Source of the DNA: Planctomycetota bacterium
Lineage (GTDB): Bacteria > Planctomycetota > Phycisphaerae > UBA1845
DNA length: 64,000 nucleotides
Assembly (NCBI GenBank): GCA_024276605.1
Contig: JAJRWX010000010.1
Coordinates: 1 to 64,000, forward strand
Direction: 5' to 3'
This document shows positions 3,620-40,611 of the stretch, piece after piece (the stretch's first letter is position 1; every line of letters starts with the position of its first letter). The position numbers and the translations under genes were made by a program. Under the pieces are notes generated by a model that saw only the letters and a list, made by a program, of their open reading frames with translations, searched no databases and was not told where the DNA came from.

Positions 3620-6289
3620 TTATTTCATACCGGCAGAACATGTTGTTGGTGTTAGGTCGACTAGATTGTCACCATTTTCATCGGTGTTTGGCGTGGATGG
3701 TGGGTTGTCAGTCAATTCTTCGCTTATTGTTTTGAATTGACTTTCGTGACGCATAAATGCTTCGACCACGGCTGAGTCGAATTGCGTACCGGACGATTTC
3801 AAGATGATGGTTACAGCCTGGTCATGATCGATGGCTTCTTTGTACGGTCGCTTCGAGATGATCGCGTCATAGGCATCCGCCAATGCCACGATACGTCCGA
3901 CCAATGGGATTTCAGCGGCTTTTAATCCCTGTGGGTAGCCCGTCCCGTCGAACCATTCGTGATGTGAAGAAGCGATGACTTCGGCCATTTTCAGCATAGG
4001 TAGCGCCGGGGCGCGATCGAGAATGGTGCGGATGGTGTCGGCACCGATCTCGGCATGTGTTTTCATGATGGCCATTTCCTGCGCGGTCAATCGGCCCGGT
4101 TTGAGCAATATTTTATCAGGGATGGCGATTTTACCAATGTCGTGTAGGGGAACTGCGCGTTCAAGGTTGTACATGAACTGATCATCAATTTTGTTGGAAT
4201 ATAGCTGCGATTTTCGCAATTCACCTGCGAGTATCAGGCAGTATTGTGTCAAGCGATCCACGTGGTTAATCATGTCTCCATCACGCTTTTCAGCAAGCTT
4301 GGCGAATGCCACCATGATGGCGTCACGTGTTACATCGCGCGATCGACGAGCCAAGATACCACTGATCGCAGTCACCGCGATGCTTGCGATCATCTCTACA
4401 GCTTCTAAATCCCGTGGCAGGAAGGGGCTTTTATCTATTCGATCGACAATATTGATCACACCGACGACGTGTTCCGTCGTACCTAGCGCGGTGCAGATGA
4501 AAGGTGTGGATATAAAGTGTAAAGCGTCCTCCTCAAGCTTGGTGTCCGCAACGGTATGCTCATCATTGATAACATGGCGAATGCCGGATTCAAAAACCCG
4601 CCATGCGATCGATGGACCGGCTGGTATTCTCATTGACGGCGATAATGGATCATCTACCCCAATGGATTTTTCTATACACAGGCATGTTCGGTGAATATTC
4701 GGCAGCATAATCGATATTCGACGACAACCGGTCAATGAGGCGGTTTCCCGGATCGTGAATTCGAGTACTTTATCCAACTCCTCCGTGGCGCCGAGCGTAC
4801 GACATAGATCCAGCAGTAAGTTAAGAATACGTGTTTGTTCGCCTCGGATATGGTTACTGTTCAACAGGTCTTGACGAGCACATTCGCGTTTGATCATTGA
4901 CTGTACGCGCATGGCAAGCTCGGCTGGTCTGATCGGCTTAGTCAAGTATTCGTCAGCGCCCGCTTCCAAGCCGGCCCTAATGTCAGAGGCGTCCGCTAAG
5001 GCACTCACCATGATGACGGGGATGTATTGTGTATTCGGATTCTCCTTGAGATGTCTTGTGCATGTCAGGCCATCCATGCCCGGCATCATGACATCCATTA
5101 GGATCACATGTGGCGGCATGCGGGAAATTTCATCGAGTGCGGTTATTCCGTCGATGGCTTCGCGTATCTCATAGCCTTCATGCTCGAGAGATTGCCTGCA
5201 AACAGCTCGGTTTGTCGCATGATCGTCTACAATCAACACCCTAAATCGGCCCTGATCATGTTGTTGCGCGGTTGTGCCTATGGCAGTTGGGCCTTGTGGT
5301 GTGATGTTCCGTGCATCCTTATTGGGCATGGTTTGGTTGAATGTGCACACCTTATTTCGCCCAGTCTCCTTGGCGATGTACATGGCCGTATCAGCTTTTT
5401 CGAGCACATCTTCCCATGAATTTTCATCCAGGTCGGCAATACCTACACTCACCGTAACACGATCAGCCACTAAGCTGGCGGGATGCGGTATGTTAAGATC
5501 GTACACTGCTTTTCTTATTCGTTCCGCAAGTACCTGCGAGGAATCAGATATTTTTTGCGGAACCAGTACGACAAATTCTTCCCCGCCGTATCTACCCACA
5601 GCATCCATCGTTCTGCAAGAAGACTGGATACAAGTAGCTACGTGCCGCAAGCAATCATCGCCCGCCTGGTGCCCCAAGGAATCGTTGTAGGATTTGAAGT
5701 AGTCGACGTCGATCATAAAAATGCTGTATCGGTCGCCATTTCTCCGGCAACGATCATGTTCCATCGTTACGCTTTCTTCCCACGCACGCCGATTGAGTAA
5801 AGTAGTGAGAGAATCGATGCGTGCCTGCCGGGCCAGTTCGATATTTGTTTCGGCTATGACTTTGGACATTTCTTCCAGTTGCTTGTTTCTTTCTTCCGTT
5901 TCCTTTTGGGCATGTCGCAACTGTAGGTGTACGGAAATGCGAGCCTTAACCTCACTCATTTTGAATGGTTTGATAAGATAGTCACATCCACCGAGTGAAA
6001 AAGCCCGGTCAATATCCTCGGCGTCGGACTTTGCGGTTAGGAAGATGAAGGGTATTGAGGCAGTCACTGGCTGCGACTGGAGGATCCTGCCTACCTCGAA
6101 ACCATCGCGTCCCGGCATCATGATGTCAAGGAGGATCAGGTCCGGCACTTGCGCGGTGGCTATGTCTACTGCTTCGAATCCGTCACGTGCTTCCTGGACT
6201 TCGTAGCCTATTTGGCTTAGAGATTTTACCAGGATGTGTCGGTTAGTGGCGTTATCGTCCACGACGAGGATGCGGTATGCTTTAGCCAT
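3620..6289 (-). CDS. REC-GGDEF-REC-GAF-HD-GYP cyclic-di-GMP regulator
   Basis: 889 residues from ATG at 6289 (a TTG 24 bases upstream is less likely because it precedes the Hpt stop). Order: receiver 1 (phospho-acceptor Asp55 in LILLDIMMPG), GGDEF cyclase (GGEEF 235-239, with an inhibitory RxxD I-site at 226-229 exactly five residues before it), receiver 2 (Asp399 in ILMDVMMPG), GAF (about 500-645) and HD-GYP phosphodiesterase (HD at 716-717, HHEWFDGTGYP at 776-786). Both cyclase and phosphodiesterase motifs look intact, so it may both make and degrade c-di-GMP under control of two phosphorylation inputs. It is encoded 10 bp after an Hpt gene, its likely phosphodonor. Cytoplasmic; no membrane segment seen. 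Confidence 0.92.
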   Translation of the reverse strand: MAKAYRILVVDDNATNRHILVKSLSQIGYEVQEARDGFEAVDIATAQVPDLILLDIMMPGRDGFEVGRILQSQPVTASIPFIFLTAKSDAEDIDRAFSLGGCDYLIKPFKMSEVKARISVHLQLRHAQKETEERNKQLEEMSKVIAETNIELARQARIDSLTTLLNRRAWEESVTMEHDRCRRNGDRYSIFMIDVDYFKSYNDSLGHQAGDDCLRHVATCIQSSCRTMDAVGRYGGEEFVVLVPQKISDSSQVLAERIRKAVYDLNIPHPASLVADRVTVSVGIADLDENSWEDVLEKADTAMYIAKETGRNKVCTFNQTMPNKDARNITPQGPTAIGTTAQQHDQGRFRVLIVDDHATNRAVCRQSLEHEGYEIREAIDGITALDEISRMPPHVILMDVMMPGMDGLTCTRHLKENPNTQYIPVIMVSALADASDIRAGLEAGADEYLTKPIRPAELAMRVQSMIKRECARQDLLNSNHIRGEQTRILNLLLDLCRTLGATEELDKVLEFTIRETASLTGCRRISIMLPNIHRTCLCIEKSIGVDDPLSPSMRIPAGPSIAWRVFESGIRHVINDEHTVADTKLEEDALHFISTPFICTALGTTEHVVGVINIVDRIDKSPFLPRDLEAVEMIASIAVTAISGILARRSRDVTRDAIMVAFAKLAEKRDGDMINHVDRLTQYCLILAGELRKSQLYSNKIDDQFMYNLERAVPLHDIGKIAIPDKILLKPGRLTAQEMAIMKTHAEIGADTIRTILDRAPALPMLKMAEVIASSHHEWFDGTGYPQGLKAAEIPLVGRIVALADAYDAIISKRPYKEAIDHDQAVTIILKSSGTQFDSAVVEAFMRHESQFKTISEELTDNPPSTPNTDENGDNLVDLTPTTCSAGMK

Positions 6290-20604: not shown

Positions 20605-20934
20605 ATGACATCAACGGATACACGAACTGCTCCGGCGGGACCATACCATCTTGTTGATGAAAGAAGACTCGATTGGACACAACAAGAAGATATATATCAG
20701 ACTGAAGTTCGACTTGTTGAAGAACAAATCGGCACATGGACCGTATATGTTCCCCAGTTACCCGGCGTTATGAGCGAAGGTGAAACAGTCGAGGAAGCAC
20801 TCCATAATATCCGCGAGGCCTTGCAAGGTACTCTTGAAAGCTATAAGGCTGACGGGATGAAGGTTCCATGGATAGAATCGATTGAACCTCGTCAACCAAA
20901 TGAAAAGGCCAAGTGGGTTCTTGTGCATGCCTAA
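20605..20934 (+). CDS. hicB: HicB-like antitoxin
   Basis: 109 residues. Central HicB fold 'GTWTVYVPQLPGVMSEGETVEEALHNIREALQGTLE', a partly degraded RNase H-like domain that binds and neutralises HicA. Strong ribosome site AAGGAAGG 8 bases before the ATG. No ribbon-helix-helix tail is obvious, so repression of its own promoter is uncertain. hicA overlaps its 3' end by 8 bases. Confidence 0.85.
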   Translation: MTSTDTRTAPAGPYHLVDERRLDWTQQEDIYQTEVRLVEEQIGTWTVYVPQLPGVMSEGETVEEALHNIREALQGTLESYKADGMKVPWIESIEPRQPNEKAKWVLVHA

Positions 20935-21154
20935 ATTGCCAGTTCTAACCGGCATAGAAGTAATTACCGCGTTCAAACGAGCCGGTTTTGAAATAGATCG
21001 CATCAAGGGAAGTCACCACATCCTAAAGAAAGCGAATTATACCTACCGGCTAGCTATACCTGTCCACGGTAAGAAACCTCTTGGTTCAGGATTACTAAGA
21101 CGGCTGATCAGAGATGCGGGGCTATCGGTCGAAGAGTTTGTTGAATTGCTTTAG
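20927..21154 (+). CDS. hicA: HicA-like mRNA interferase toxin
   Basis: 75 residues. dsRBD-like HicA fold with the catalytic His in 'GSHHILKK' and 'IPVHGKKPLGSGLLRRLIRDAGLS'. In the family it cleaves mRNA independently of translation. ATG 20927 overlaps the hicB stop, and an upstream in-frame ATG at 20882 is rejected because it would lie deep inside hicB. Order hicB-hicA is the less common one. Confidence 0.88.
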   Translation: MPKLPVLTGIEVITAFKRAGFEIDRIKGSHHILKKANYTYRLAIPVHGKKPLGSGLLRRLIRDAGLSVEEFVELL

Positions 21155-21250: not shown

Positions 21251-21793
21251 CTACATCCCCACTTCCAGATCAACCCCCAACCCCTCTGCGATGCGGTTGA
21301 TATAGTTGAAAAACGAGATGACCTGCGTAGCGTCGCCGATGGCTTCGTCGGTGAGGTCCAGCGAGCGTAGGTGGTCGATATCAGTCTGTGTCACTGCAGA
21401 AGGCGTTTTTGTTAGTTTGATGGCGTGATCGCAGAGCGCTCGATCGACTTCGGAAAGCTTAGCCTGGCGATAATCCGTCTTGATCTGCTCTACCCATTCG
21501 TCGTTGTTGACCTCAACACGGAGGTCGCGCGCGTGCGCCTGCGTTCAGTAATAGCAGTCGTTAGCTTTAGAGACCACCGTAGCCAGCATCTCCCGTTGTG
21601 CTCGACTCAGATGCTCGTTGTCCTGCACGGTTGAAGCTACGTACAGGTTCATGCACCCCTGCAGCGCAGCAGGGTTGGTGCTTTGAACTTTTAGAATGTT
21701 AGCCACACGCCCCGTTCTGGCGGTCGAAGCTTTGTAGATGCGATCGAGCGTACCGTCTGCGTGTGCCTCATCAATGATGTTGATATAAGCCAT
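21251..21793 (-). CDS. AhpD-like peroxidase-related selenoprotein (in-frame TGA = Sec83)
   Basis: 180 residues if TGA at 21545-21547 is read through as selenocysteine; TAG at 21251-21253 is the true stop. The TGA falls exactly at the second cysteine of the AhpD CxxC redox motif: residues 80-83 are C-Y-Y-TGA, preceded by 'VVSKAND' and followed by 'TQAHARDL'. Downstream the frame continues the family: 'KLSEVDRALCDHAIKLT', 'DATQVISFFNYINRIAEGLG'. In AhpD this position is the peroxidatic residue. A hairpin of bacterial SECIS form starts 18 bases after the TGA. AhpD-like selenoproteins are known in bacteria, which supports Sec. selABC are not in this window. Without Sec incorporation only an 82-residue fragment would be made. 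Confidence 0.88.
21509..21526 (-). promoter_or_regulatory. Bacterial SECIS-like hairpin
   Basis: On the minus strand GACCTC-CGTGTT-GAGGTC: a perfect 6-bp stem with a 6-base apical loop. The loop has G at its second position, and this G is 26 bases after the TGA. Both the loop G and the distance (16-37 bases) meet the published bacterial SECIS model for SelB binding. It lies within the coding sequence, as bacterial SECIS elements do. Confidence 0.8.
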
Positions 21794-21832: not shown

Positions 21833-22831
21833 TCATTTAACTGTCACAGTGGAATGTTTCGACACCAGGCAGTCGTACAGTTGTTCGACGTCCTTGTTGT
21901 ACATGCGAATGCAGCCGAGTGAAGTGTTGTGTCCAATGGAGTCCGGCTCAATAGTCCCGTGGATACCGTAGCGACGTTGACCCAGTGCATCTCCGCTCAC
22001 GCCGATCAATCCAATCCACCGTTCCCCCAACGGGTTCGTGGGATCATCGGCTGCGATAATGTCCCCGCCGCGCGGGGGATAGTATTGCGGATTCTTAAGC
22101 TTGGTGCCGACCTGCCACTCTCCCGTCGGCGTGCTTCCATCTTCACCAAGCCCCACACGATATTGCTTCACAAACGTCGAGTCTAGATGTAGGTCCAGCG
22201 TGAAAGTTTTTTTGCTAACCGTCGCAAGAAAAGGGCCGTGAATAACTTTCAATGCCTGACCCACGCGAATGAGATTTTTATTTCGGATACCATTGATGGT
22301 CGCCAGCAAATCATCCGACACTCTGAATTGCCGTGCGATCTTCCCCAGCGTGTCACCCGTCTTGATGATATACCGACCGACATGCGGGTCGCCATCGTAA
22401 ATTCGCGCCGAGAAGATTGTCTCGTTCCCAATGCGTGACAATTCGCCACGCAAAAACTTCTCATCAGCTTCACCGACCCCCAGCGACAGAGCTTCACTGA
22501 AGTGCGTCCGCGCTGCAATCAGGTCTTTGCTGATAACCGCCTGCTTACCGGCTTTGATTAGCGACTGCGTCCGCTGCGGCGTCGTCATCACAGGCTTTGT
22601 GCTAGGACTGATCCCACCCTTTTCTATGACGTCGGGTTGAGTGCGGTTGGGTTCGTACTGCTGTGGTCGATCGGTTGATAGTCTGGGTTGAGGCGCAAGG
22701 GCGAGCGTGTTGTCGAGTTCGTTTCCTTGGCTATCGGTGTGATACAACCAATACCAAGCGCTGGCTGCGGTCGCCAATAAGACGATTAAAGCCAGACCCG
22801 GTCGAGATTTTCGTCTGCGGCGTCTGGCCAT
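21833..22831 (-). CDS. LysM-containing L,D-transpeptidase
   Basis: 332 residues from ATG 22831 (9 codons inside the longest frame). Arg-rich N-terminus and one TM/signal anchor (about 12-32, 'GLALIVLLATAASAWYWLY'), a Pro-rich linker, a LysM domain ('IIKTGDTLGKIARQFRVSDD'), then the YkuD catalytic domain with 'GIHGT' and 'SLGCIRM' (catalytic Cys). Cross-links peptidoglycan 3-3 or attaches proteins to it, in the periplasm. Evidence that this planctomycete has a peptidoglycan wall. Confidence 0.93.
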   Translation of the reverse strand: MARRRRRKSRPGLALIVLLATAASAWYWLYHTDSQGNELDNTLALAPQPRLSTDRPQQYEPNRTQPDVIEKGGISPSTKPVMTTPQRTQSLIKAGKQAVISKDLIAARTHFSEALSLGVGEADEKFLRGELSRIGNETIFSARIYDGDPHVGRYIIKTGDTLGKIARQFRVSDDLLATINGIRNKNLIRVGQALKVIHGPFLATVSKKTFTLDLHLDSTFVKQYRVGLGEDGSTPTGEWQVGTKLKNPQYYPPRGGDIIAADDPTNPLGERWIGLIGVSGDALGQRRYGIHGTIEPDSIGHNTSLGCIRMYNKDVEQLYDCLVSKHSTVTVK

Positions 22832-23177
22832 GTGTCGCCTCCGTGCGGGAAAATCCAAAGCTTATGCCACGCGACCCTTCTGTTCAGGGTACGTATCAAA
22901 TTACGGCTACTAAAATCTAAGAATAGCATAACAAGTCACCAAACGGATGCAACGTGCGCGACTTAATTCACAGATTTGTGAAGTTGTGTTTTTCGGCCAT
23001 GTGACTATGTGTTCAGCCCATACGCCCTGTAAAGGGTGGTAGATGACTTTCTTAGGTGATTGGGAATCGTATCAGTACGGGTTGACGAATCGCAGCCCGG
23101 TCTCTCCAATGTAGATGGTAAATTCATGGTGTTAGTTCCAACACCTAAAATCTCTTGGCGTAGAAAACGATAAGTCT
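22832..23177. other. Divergent intergenic region
   Basis: About 345 bp between the L,D-transpeptidase gene (minus) and the gene at 23178 (plus). I see no ORF with coding character, RNA gene or repeat. Confidence 0.45.
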
Positions 23178-33385: not shown

Positions 33386-35928
33386 GCTGTGGTTTGCCGA
33401 GACGCGTCGCTCAGATACACTCAACTCGTCTTCGGACATTTCGCTTTCCAGGCTGTGGTTTGCCGAGACGCGTCGCTCAGATACACTAGCACGGCACGAC
33501 TGTTGACGGTGCAATTAGCTGTGGTTTGCCGAGACGCGTCGCTCAGATACACTGCCCGCGTTATCCGGTATCGCCGCCCGATCGCTGTGGTTTGCCGAGA
33601 CGCGTCGCTCAGATACACTCGGGCCAGTGATCTCACCGTCATCGCTAATGCTGTGGTTTGCCGAGACGCGTCGCTCAGATACACTTGACCACTGCCCACG
33701 CATCTGCAACACACGCTGTGGTTTGCCGAGACGCGTCGCTCAGATACACTGCCATTCCGGGGCGCCCGTAACATACACGCGCTGTGGTTTGCCGAGACGC
33801 GTCGCTCAGATACACTTGCCATCCCCATTTTGGTTGAGGCAGTAACGCTGTGGTTTGCCGAGACGCGTCGCTCAGATACACTTGGGAGTCGATGATCGCT
33901 TACGTTTTTTGTGCTGTGGTTTGCCGAGACGCGTCGCTCAGATACACTCTTTCCAGAAGACCCACGATTGCGTGATGAGCTGTGGTTTGCCGAGACGCGT
34001 CGCTCAGATACACTACGTATAACTTGGGCCATGACAACGGGGTAGCTGTGGTTTGCCGAGACGCGTCGCTCAGATACACTGCAGGCCCAACGTCTATATT
34101 GACAACGACTGCTGTGGTTTGCCGAGACGCGTCGCTCAGATACACTAACGACGATAATTAAGATATTGACACAATAGCTGTGGTTTGCCGAGACGCGTCG
34201 CTCAGATACACTACCATTAGTTACCTGCCCACCACTCGCCGCGCTGTGGTTTGCCGAGACGCGTCGCTCAGATACACTGAGGTTTTTTGAGGGTACGTAG
34301 GTCTTTTAGCTGTGGTTTGCCGAGACGCGTCGCTCAGATACACTACCTACAGCGTATGAAGCTTTAGTCAAGTAGCTGTGGTTTGCCGAGACGCGTCGCT
34401 CAGATACACTTAACATTACCTGCTTTACCCCCTACTGATCGCTGTGGTTTGCCGAGACGCGTCGCTCAGATACACTTCACCGCCGGTACCAACGCCGCTA
34501 GCCGTCGCTGTGGTTTGCCGAGACGCGTCGCTCAGATACACTCCGATGGTATACTCTGATCGTGTATATCTGGCTGTGGTTTGCCGAGACGCGTCGCTCA
34601 GATACACTCTCGCCGCGTTTGCGGTCTATGCTTGAGTTGCTGTGGTTTGCCGAGACGCGTCGCTCAGATACACTACGGTATCATTCACGATGGTGGTTAG
34701 TATGGCTGTGGTTTGCCGAGACGCGTCGCTCAGATACACTTTGACGCCGCTAGCTAGTGCCGCCGAATCCGCTGTGGTTTGCCGAGACGCGTCGCTCAGA
34801 TACACTGCTCCTTTATTGCGAATGTGCTCCATGTACGCTGTGGTTTGCCGAGACGCGTCGCTCAGATACACTGGAATCGTTTGGCAAGCGAGTTGACCAG
34901 CAGCTGTGGTTTGCCGAGACGCGTCGCTCAGATACACTATCAGTAAAATTGAAACTGTGGCACGCAAAGCTGTGGTTTGCCGAGACGCGTCGCTCAGATA
35001 CACTTTCCCCGCAATAGATATATCCTGGCACGGGGCTGTGGTTTGCCGAGACGCGTCGCTCAGATACACTGCGTGAGTTGCTTATGAATCCCCCACAACT
35101 GCTGTGGTTTGCCGAGACGCGTCGCTCAGATACACTCCTGCCGTCCTCGTCCTTCCAGTTGTCTGGGCTGTGGTTTGCCGAGACGCGTCGCTCAGATACA
35201 CTTCAGCTCCAGCTTACGAGGTGTGGGCATTGGCTGTGGTTTGCCGAGACGCGTCGCTCAGATACACTTCAACCGGGCAACGTACAACTACAAGACGTGC
35301 TGTGGTTTGCCGAGACGCGTCGCTCAGATACACTGATAATTCAATCGCTGCGGTTGGCATTTGGGCTGTGGTTTGCCGAGACGCGTCGCTCAGATACACT
35401 CGCGCCTTAGAACCGCCAAGGCTATCTACCGCTGTGGTTTGCCGAGACGCGTCGCTCAGATACACTCAGCTTCTCGAATATGTCGCCACGCATCTTGCTG
35501 TGGTTTGCCGAGACGCGTAGCTCAGATACACTCGAGTATGTGGTTATACGACTGTTTGGTGGGCTGTGGTTTGCCGAGACGCGTCGCTCAGATACACTTA
35601 TAGTCTTTTGTTACAATTGCCATTTAAGGCTGTGGTTTGCCGAGACGCGTCGCTCAGATACACTTGCATAGAGATTGAAGCGTCAGCACCAAGTGCTGTG
35701 GTTTGCCGAGACGCGTCGCTCAGATACACTAATATATTTAGTCGTCCCGATCCCGCCTGTGCTGTGGTTTGCCGAGACGCGTCGCTCAGATACACTACCA
35801 ATGGACATCGGCAGGCGATTTGCCGCGCTGTGGTTTGCCGAGACGCGTCGCTCAGATACACTGATGAGCACCAAGGGCACACGCTGGTATACGCTGTGGT
35901 TTGCCGAGACGCGTCGCTCAGATACACT
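33386..35928 (+). CRISPR. Type II-C CRISPR array, 39 repeats and 38 spacers
   Basis: 36-bp repeats beginning GCTGTGGTTTGC and ending CAGATACACT, all identical by eye except repeat 33 (35497-35532), which has C to A at position 23. Repeat starts are spaced 66 bp, so spacers are 30 bp; spacer 5 (33686-33714) is 29 bp. Pairing with the tracrRNA anti-repeat shows transcription on the plus strand, toward cas2. Each repeat contains TTGCCG (positions 9-14) and TACACT (31-36), 16 bases apart, resembling a promoter, as in Neisseria II-C arrays where each crRNA has its own promoter. Near-perfect repeats argue for recent acquisition. Confidence 0.98.
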
Positions 35929-35978
35929 CGAGCGCTCGTAAACCACTGAGAGGTAAGGAGATATCAAAGAAAGGCTGG

Positions 35979-37328: not shown

Positions 37329-40300
37329 TTAGTCATTAGCTGGAATAACACATCCGAGATATGTTACTCGGACCTTGCGGGCTTTGCCTTTGCGTAGTTT
37401 CTCGCCTGAGGCTCGCTCACGAGACTTTGTCTTACGACGCTCCTTTTGTGTGCGCGCGTCCCAATGTAATGTCAATTCAATGTCTCCCTCAGAAATGCCA
37501 TTGATCCGATAAATGTGGTTATCACCATGCTTGTCTTTGAATTCGAGACACTCATTCCCTGAAAGTGAAAACTTGAACCGCCGATTATCGCCCCAATCAC
37601 GTTGTACGATGGGTTCGCCGCGCCGGCGTCGCTGCATGACTTCAAATCTAGTTACGGGATGATCGGTCCATTTGGTTTCGTTTCCATTTTCATCAAGATC
37701 GGCCACGATGACGGTATGATGGTTGCTACCTGCCTTGGCGGCTACATGTCGCCGACGCGGTCCCTCTCCAATATCCCATGTTGTGACACTGGCTTTGACA
37801 CGTATTTTGTGAATGGGAATACGTCGCCCATCGTGCGTTTTCTGGGATGGGTGGTTGGCTGGGTCGGCGAACACTATCGCTGGATTCTTGCCTTTAGCGT
37901 TAGCGAATGCCTGTTGAATGATCTTGCGTTTTATGGGGTCAACAATGGCGTTTCCGGTGATTTCCTTTACTTAAAGCTTATGGAGGAGTTTACGCACGTG
38001 GCGCACCGGTTGTTTGTCATTCACGTTTATCGGTTTGCTGTATAATGTTTCTGCGTGCAATACGCCGTTTAACTTGCGACTTACCCGCATTGAAACATGA
38101 ACATGGTTTAGCATCTCATGTAAATCTTTCTCGAACCCTGTCCATGGATGCTCAATTGGGGCAAAGAGTTTTCGCCGGTGCTCATAGGCATTAGCCGCCG
38201 CATGAGAAAGTTTCTCCACAATAGCTGGTGAAGACAGTGCAATTAGGACGGCATCTTCGGCATGATGTAAATGCGTGTCTCGATTCTTAGGGCCTAGCTG
38301 CCATTCGCGTCGCAGAATACTAGTTATACCACCTGTGTTCGTCTGAATGTGTTGGCGACCATTCTAGTCTATTCGTCCACCATATAGTAGCCCCAGATAA
38401 TCTGCGGCCAGTCTTGATGTGTATCGGGTATCCTGCAGATGTCGTAATGGCTGCATGTCTTCCGGTATTTCCTCAGCCATAAATCGACGTAGTTTTTCTC
38501 GCGCTCCATTTCCCTGGAATCGCCTTACTCGTTCAATGATTTGCTCCCAACGTTCCTGGTCTTGACTATAGGCTTCATGCGGCGTGAGATTCCCTTTGCG
38601 TGTACGGTTCTCTTCATGGTAGCAGAGCGTTTTGTTGAAAAAATTGTTATCGAGGGATCGGCTCATTGGCCAGATGTGTTCTATATCGAATTGGGGGTTT
38701 TGTCCGATCAGTGTACGCATAGAAATCTGTTTCCCGGTATAGGGGCATTCCCAGCCACACTCGTCTGCTAGAAGAACTTTCTGTATGTCTGAGTTGTTGG
38801 GTATGGCTACGTCTGATTTGTCAAGAATCCTTGCAATAGCCTTCTCACGTTGTTTTTCATTGGCTTTCATTCGTTTAGACGCCTCCTGCCGTTGCTTGCG
38901 GGGGCGTTTTAGATCGCGTGCTAATTCGATGCGAATCACATCCGGTTTGCCATGCTCATCAATCAACTGATTAACCAGCTTGCGAAGTTCAGTCAGTGCA
39001 CGGCAGACGGCAGGATTGCGTAAATCGGACAGAGCTGTCAACACCGGCGGTAGCTTGTCTACAGGTTCTTTAGATTCAAAACTTTCCGGAAATTCAATCT
39101 GACGGGCTGTTTGATACGGCGTACCATCCTTCATACGTTTAACCAATCTAGCTAACGCTTGACGGGAATGGGCGGTATGTCCAGATTCTAAGGTGACTTC
39201 TGCCAATTCTCTGGCTTGTTCGGTGTCAAGACTCCAAACCTGCCGCGCACGACGAATCAATGAGTCGCTTTTTTCAAATGATCGAACATCCTCAACAACT
39301 GCATCGCGCTCCGCCTCCGATAAAACCATCCATCGATCACCGAAGATTTTACTCAGCTTTGCGTCTGTACGATTTCCGACCAGCCTTTTCTCGCCACCCT
39401 CTTCGAAGTTGAAGGTCGCATCCTTTGGCAGAGCCAAATATTTTTTACCCTTCAATGTCTTTAGCGTCTTGTCTCCTTCTTGGTCGAGCACTTCAAACAA
39501 TTGTTGCCTTTCCATATCGTCTAGCTTGCGTGAGGTTTGATCGGGCAAGTGAATAACCAAATCGTTAATTTTTTGCATCATGCGAAAGCGCTGTGCTACG
39601 CGCAGCGCTAACGGTGCACGTTGATAAATTGGTTTGCCATGTTTGTCCCGAATCAGTTCGCACTTACCTATTAAATGGCTTTGTGATTTGAGTGGTCGCT
39701 GGTCAAAAATAGCATCAAAAATGCGTTTTCGAATGTCTTCGGTTAATTGTTTAAGATACTTCGACTGTGCTAACCAAATCGCATCGAATTCGTCAATAAA
39801 CATTTGACGGGAAGTCCATCGCCGCCGGACAACTTCATTTTGTGGGTTAAGCGAAGCAAAGTATTCACCCAATGTACGTGCCTGGACCTGTGTCATCTCT
39901 TCATGCAACTTGCTAATCCCAGCTTTCACTACACCTTCATCGCTATCGCCTGCACTAGTCTTACGATTACTCAAGAATCCTCGCCGCTGAGCCAAATGAT
40001 AAATGGCTCGCCCAAATTCAAAAGGCTCAAGTTGACTGTCCAATGCTTTGCGCCGTAGCAAGTAGGGTAATAAATGCCGCGTTGCTTCTTGGTCGATATA
40101 TTTTTTTCGAATTGAGGCATCGAGCGCAAGAATCATGTCATGAATTTCAGTTGGTGAATCAACCGAACATGTTGGAAGCAAATGATGGTATTGCAGGATT
40201 TTGAGCAACTTGCGTTTGCGCCATGCACGCCGCCAATGCTGACGCCTGGGTTGTCGTGCCTCACGGCGCACTGTAGCCCGTGACTCATCACGTCCACTTT

Positions 40301-40454
40301 CCATATCCCCCTCTACGCCGGCATCAAACCTATGAGAGCCAAGCGATATGAGCTTTCTATCACCCGACTGCTGTTTCTGTAATACAGCCCAACCCACAGA
40401 TTCTGCACCAATATCCAATCCCAATACATAAGAGCCGGTTTTTGTGTTTTCCAA
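37329..40454 (-). pseudogene. cas9: Cas9 endonuclease, type II-C, interrupted by two in-frame stops
   Basis: One uninterrupted frame of 1,041 residues except for TAG at 38364-38366 (codon 697) and TAA at 37971-37973 (codon 828). Start is TTG 40454, with AGGAG 7 bases upstream; the longer frame to 40562 would run through the tracrRNA gene. Seen in order: RuvC-I (Asp14, 'YVLGLDIGAESVGWAVLQ'), Arg-rich bridge helix ('RREARQPRRQHWRRAWRKRK'), REC lobe, RuvC-II (Glu510), HNH (His593, 'FDIEHIWPMSRSLDNNFFN'), then after the TAG 'NGRQHIQTNTGGITSILRREW' in two parts, RuvC-III (HHAEDA, His731/Asp734), and after the TAA the WED/PAM-interacting region ('GSNHHTVIVAD'). No frame change and no catalytic loss. 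As read, only residues 1-696 would be made, lacking RuvC-III and PAM recognition. Confidence 0.93.
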
Positions 40455-40465
40455 TGAAAAGCTCC

Positions 40466-40496
40466 TTGACTTAACACATTGATTTGATATTATACT
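40466..40496 (+). promoter_or_regulatory. Predicted tracrRNA promoter
   Basis: -35 TTGACT (40466-40471) with -10 TATTAT (40488-40493, spacing 16) or TATACT (40491-40496, spacing 19), just before the anti-repeat at 40501. The -35 box overlaps the cas9 ribosome site on the opposite strand, so transcription of tracrRNA and cas9 may interfere with each other. Confidence 0.65.
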
Positions 40497-40500
40497 GGGT

Positions 40501-40611
40501 AGTGTATCTGAGCGACGTTTGTCTTGCAAATCATAGTAAGGACTTATGTTCGCGAAAGGCAACGCTCCTCGTGAGCGACCTTCTAACGCCTCTCATACGG
40601 GGCGTTTTTTT
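40501..40611 (+). ncRNA. tracrRNA
   Basis: Anti-repeat 40501-40537: AGTGTATCTGAGCGACG matches the complement of repeat positions 20-36 exactly, and GCAAATCATAGT pairs with the repeat 5' end (GCTGTGGTTTGC) with three G-U pairs; the middle forms a bulge. It is followed by 'AAGGACTTATG', a hairpin CGCTC-CTCGT-GAGCG (40563-40577) and a terminator hairpin with T7. The tail resembles the Neisseria tracrRNA ('TAAGG...CAACGCTC'). Location directly upstream of cas9 on the other strand is common for II-C. It guides crRNA maturation and Cas9 loading. Confidence 0.92.
40584..40611 (+). terminator. tracrRNA Rho-independent terminator
   Basis: ACGCC (40585-40589), loop, GGCGT, then seven T (to 40611). Stem of 5 bp plus a T run, the usual tracrRNA 3' end. 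Confidence 0.8.

Follow-up and report, generated by a model that had tools for sequence, protein, structure and literature searches.

The gene and its surroundings

The window analysed here, a 64,000-nucleotide stretch of DNA from a Planctomycetota bacterium, carries on its minus strand a gene (21251-21793) for an AhpD-like protein of 180 amino acids in the TIGR01926/CMD family. The reading frame opens with an ATG at 21793 and closes with a TAG stop codon at 21251-21253, and is crossed at codon 83 by an in-frame TGA (21545-21547) that is preceded by 82 codons and followed by 97 more up to the TAG. This TGA occupies the second cysteine position of a C-Y-Y-C redox motif (C80-Y81-Y82-TGA83; 21545-21556), and a putative bacterial SECIS hairpin lies downstream of it on the same strand (21509-21526). 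A sequence-only reading of the locus had proposed a probable AhpD-like selenoprotein with a CxxU motif and an adjacent SECIS element; when the frame was re-read, the ORF ends, the position of the TGA, both codon counts and the C80-Y-Y-TGA83 motif given there all proved correct. A standard gene caller ends the ORF at codon 82, and ordinary callers would cut its relatives in many planctomycete genomes in the same way.

Upstream on the same strand, across a gap of 39 bp, lies a LysM and YkuD L,D-transpeptidase gene (21833-22858), and the two genes are possibly co-transcribed. This gene order is kept at four of the compared loci (L022, L023, L025 and L026) and lost at more distant ones. A search by gene order for a conserved redox operon found none: only the L,D-transpeptidase gene recurs, and only among near relatives, and no neighbour at the compared loci could be tied to the chemistry of the selenoprotein. 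Downstream of the selenoprotein gene, the congeners carry glyA and a dus-like gene; in the window, a HicB-like antitoxin and HicA toxin pair on the opposite strand (20605-21154, plus strand) intervenes before glyA, and this pair is missing at the corresponding place in the congeneric loci L022 and L023. At locus L026, part of the C-terminal half of the selenoprotein occurs a second time (5794-6108; VDRALCDHAIKLTR...), about 1.2 kb downstream from the complete gene.

Elsewhere in the window, a Cas9-like frame on the minus strand (37329-40592; LGLDIGAESVGWAV, HHAEDA) is broken by an in-frame TAG (38364) and an in-frame TAA (37971), and CRISPR-like repeat stretches lie beside it at about 33421-35949. 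Because these interruptions are TAG and TAA rather than TGA, they do not represent selenocysteine; the frame is a decayed gene or contains assembly errors. A scan of the window for a TGA combined with a redox motif and a hairpin brought up no obvious gene by eye besides the AhpD-like one.

Conservation of the TGA and the selenocysteine machinery

Matches to the protein were present in 40 of 60 relatives, and the best match holds exactly one TGA in 38 of these. A phylum-wide draw of 246 Planctomycetota genomes (match threshold E 1e-12) gave 110 with a match, 105 of which have one TGA in the best match. Seventy-four different homologues with the TGA were read individually, among them loci titled Myxococcota, Chloroflexi/Anaerolineae, Actinomycetota and Candidatus Actinomarina, and in all 74 the TGA falls at the CxxU position. 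The solved relatives 6k40, 2oyo and 2pfx carry cysteine exactly where the TGA stands, in keeping with the assignment of this codon to the second cysteine of CxxC in the sequence-only reading, and cysteine also replaces selenocysteine in homologue loci L096, L099 and L100. The in-frame UGA lies inside a conserved coding frame. Comparison of the gene with its two congeners gave dN/dS values below 0.1 before as well as after the TGA, those after it being 0.048, 0.089 and 0.060; such strong purifying selection indicates that the 97-codon extension is translated as protein.

A pseudogene or a sequencing error would offer a different account, in which a cysteine codon (TGC or TGT) has been mutated to or misread as TGA and the product is truncated at 82 residues. 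A single substitution makes this change, and the stop called at codon 82 agrees with it. This account is refuted by a TGA retained in tens of independent assemblies and by purifying selection downstream of it (dN/dS about 0.05-0.09), and the complete selenocysteine machinery described below also speaks against it; we assign it practically no probability. Since the TGA is common to independent relatives, it is not a sequencing error.

Several loci depart from the simple pattern of one TGA-containing gene. Locus L098 (G130:C155) has tandem paralogues carrying CHYU and CEYL; in the latter, leucine takes the selenocysteine position, and this copy is possibly a case of selenocysteine lost without a return to cysteine. 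Both congeners have a second CxxU paralogue (L103, G002:C6; L104, G001:C107), about 37% identical, which was not found in the genome of the window (G000). A TAG in homologue G212 was considered as selenocysteine at UAG and rejected, as it lies elsewhere in the frame and the G212 protein has CAYC.

Genome G000 (4.5 Mb, 96% complete) contains SelA, SelB, SelD and tRNA-Sec, the full set of genes that the selenoprotein proposal presupposed. The selA gene is on contig C13 (569 bits), selB on C16 (310 bits, or 352 bits including a second piece; cut-off 242), the tRNA-Sec gene selC on C108 (anticodon TCA, 64.8 bits vs a cut-off of 47) and selD on C110 (368 bits), where its own frame holds an in-frame TGA in an SCAGU motif. 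A match to selA was absent in four draft relatives with the TGA form of the gene (G004, G007, G009 and G047). Peroxiredoxin and thioredoxin-fold genes are many in G000, and at least four of the thioredoxin-fold genes other than the one studied here have TGA at redox positions. Four such AhpC-TSA/thioredoxin-fold genes (L111-L114, on contigs C75, C10, C16 and C49), with the contexts WGHG-U-GPC, YRAYW-U-PFC, SYT-U-PPF and SW-U-AGC, are probable further selenoproteins, and one of them lies about 460 bp from selB. From selABCD and the TGA codons in selD and the four AhpC-TSA genes, it follows that the organism very probably uses selenocysteine, and does so in several redox proteins.

The hairpin downstream of codon 83

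The hairpin (GACCTC-CGTGTT-GAGGTC) begins 18 nt past the TGA and places its loop G 26 nt past it, and its sequence and spacing are those originally described. The model for bacterial SECIS elements has a loop of 3-9 nt, a stem of 4-16 bp, a G in the first two loop positions, a distance of 16-37 nt from the UGA and a minimum free energy of at most -7.5 (PMC13188914). The hairpin agrees with this model throughout, with a 6-nt loop, a 6-bp stem, a G second in the loop, 24 nt from UGA to loop and a calculated energy of -7.8 kcal/mol for the 18-mer or -9.3 kcal/mol with flanks. The sequence-only reading had judged chance an unlikely source of these signals. One sequence by itself does not show this: 31 (1.3%) of the window's 2428 TGA triplets are followed, at a suitable distance, by a similar G-loop hairpin of 6 bp, and the stability of the local fold does not exceed that of shuffled sequence for a stretch this rich in GC (z = -0.09), so that the hairpin in a single sequence is suggestive only. 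It is conservation among relatives that settles the question.

Across the 74 sequences, 88% of the stem cells are paired, vs 29-55% when one side of the stem is slid. The stem pair 24-37 is C-G in 53 sequences and T-A in nine, the latter being double changes. Changes at position 24, the third base of an Asp codon, are silent, and the base at position 37 determines whether Val or Ile is encoded. The Asp codon follows this choice: with Val it is GAC in 40 sequences and GAT in none, and with Ile it is GAC in two and GAT in eight (Fisher 8e-8, related sequences being counted as independent). The Leu codon in the stem is CTC in 66 of 68 sequences vs 33% elsewhere in the same genes, and the Glu codon is GAG in 65 of 67 vs 59%. 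The p-values for these hairpin codons are inflated by relatedness, and their direction is clear. A well-formed hairpin at the exact offset and register is missing from 13 of the 74 TGA homologues, mostly in distant branches of the family; the Cys homologues are of limited use as a control, as they are distant and have different amino acids in this region. The compensatory and silent changes by which the stem is kept indicate that the hairpin is under selection as RNA.

The residue inserted at the UGA cannot be named from sequence alone, and a suppressor tRNA, or a genome-wide reassignment of TGA to Trp or Cys, would also give read-through. The full SelABCD set with its dedicated tRNA-Sec(UCA), the selection on the hairpin as RNA and the presence of Cys, not Trp, at position 83 of the homologues all argue against these routes, and we consider them highly improbable. 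The earlier proposal of a selenoprotein is thus supported by selABCD, the conserved TGA, the Cys homologues, the dN/dS downstream and the selection on the hairpin. We conclude that the gene product is almost certainly an AhpD-like oxidoreductase that contains selenocysteine and belongs to the TIGR01926 "peroxidase-related" family, UGA83 being recoded via the hairpin. At UGA83 the ribosome would not terminate; SelB with Sec-tRNA(Sec), recruited by the hairpin, would insert selenocysteine.

Family, fold and predicted chemistry

The read-through protein matches TIGR01926 with 150.3 bits (curated cut-off 81.8), its residues 3-174, across the TGA, aligning with positions 2-173 of the 178 in the model, and is a member of this family over the full model; Pfam CMD is matched as well. 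All 49 aligned homologues match TIGR01926; C80, Y82, H87 and position 83 do not vary among them, and E68 is nearly invariant. The protein is not a member of the equivalog NF041238 (AhpD_rel_CFYUT; 75.3 bits vs a cut-off of 175), an AhpD-related (seleno)protein family with C-x-x-U to which its C-terminal half is homologous. Glu68 (codon 21590-21592, minus strand) is equivalent to the proton-relay residues Glu36 of PA0269 and Glu118 of M. tuberculosis AhpD, and His87 (codon 21533-21535, minus strand) to the relay residues His55 and His137, in the spacing E-x11-C-x-x-U-x3-H. The Glu/Cys/Tyr/Cys/His relay is known in PA0269, and M. tuberculosis AhpD has His for Tyr and requires both cysteines (PMC3141380).

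A single-sequence structure prediction (pLDDT 42.6) was rejected in favour of an AlphaFold2 model built on the 49-homologue alignment, with Cys standing in for Sec. The model predicts an all-helical protein (pLDDT 95.8) in which residue 83 is at the start of helix 81-95. The sequence also has the Glu, CxxC/U and His residues of the AhpD active site. The nearest solved relative, by sequence (E 5e-27) as well as by fold (TM 0.93, rmsd 1.4, 33% identity), is D. radiodurans AhpD (6k40, DR_1765), which has the same E/C/x/C/H pattern but Cys where the planctomycete protein has Sec. M. tuberculosis AhpD (1knc) and PA0269 (2o4d) share the catalytic helix pair with its Glu, Cys, Tyr/His, Cys, His relay, but differ in chain topology or length and also have Cys for Sec. 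Structures of the AhpD-fold debrominase Bmp8 are among the fold matches too.

The product would be an all-helical AhpD-fold protein with Sec83 and Cys80 at the start of a helix, beside the Glu68, Tyr82, His87 relay. Most probably, it would reduce either a peroxide or an oxidised thiol partner. Sec83, presumably the residue that attacks first, would be oxidised and form a Se-S bond with Cys80, which a cellular dithiol, probably of the lipoyl or thioredoxin type, would reduce back.

A genuine selenoprotein may also serve in a role other than peroxide reduction, either as a thiol-disulphide adaptor for a peroxiredoxin or OsmC partner or in another redox reaction, as in Bmp8. Peroxidase activity in the family is weak where it was measured (PA0269; PMC3141380), so that a reductase, adaptor or other role is possible. 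M. tuberculosis AhpD is an adaptor for AhpC, C. glutamicum AhpD reduces OsmC (PMC8945050), and the genome's many peroxiredoxin/thioredoxin-fold genes and the Bmp8 fold matches point the same way. Conversely, all five relay residues are present, and the nearest characterised relative guards against H2O2, the D. radiodurans AhpD mutant being H2O2-sensitive and its CxxC mutants complementing poorly (PMC8945050, a review); the gene-order search found no conserved redox neighbour, which also counts against a role of this other kind. We regard such a role as a serious possibility, somewhat short of an even one.

AhpD-like CxxU selenoproteins (COG2128) were described in the 2005 survey of the Sargasso Sea (27 sequences; PMC1088965) and as "AhpD-like 1" from GOS in 2008 (299 sequences; PMC2398784), and a 2026 review and catalogue places them under TIGR01926 (PMC13188914), so that the planctomycete gene is a further case of a known family. 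It has in common with them the HMM family, the CxxU motif and a bacterial SECIS element close after the UGA, and differs in its host, a Planctomycetota lineage known here from a MAG; no functional difference was detected. What the gene offers is clean comparative evidence for recoding of the TGA, together with silent-site selection on the hairpin. The mildly new point appears to be the completeness of Sec over Cys in the TIGR01926 AhpD-like family within Planctomycetota. Selenocysteine, apparently almost exclusive there and accompanied by a conserved recoding hairpin, may be a long-held state of the lineage from which the Cys forms (or the Leu form at L098) are rare later losses, rather than an occasional replacement, and we hold the chances of this to be evenly balanced. 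Knowledge of selenocysteine insertion and of the AhpD family is left unchanged, and the gene enlarges the known selenoproteome of a little-studied lineage.
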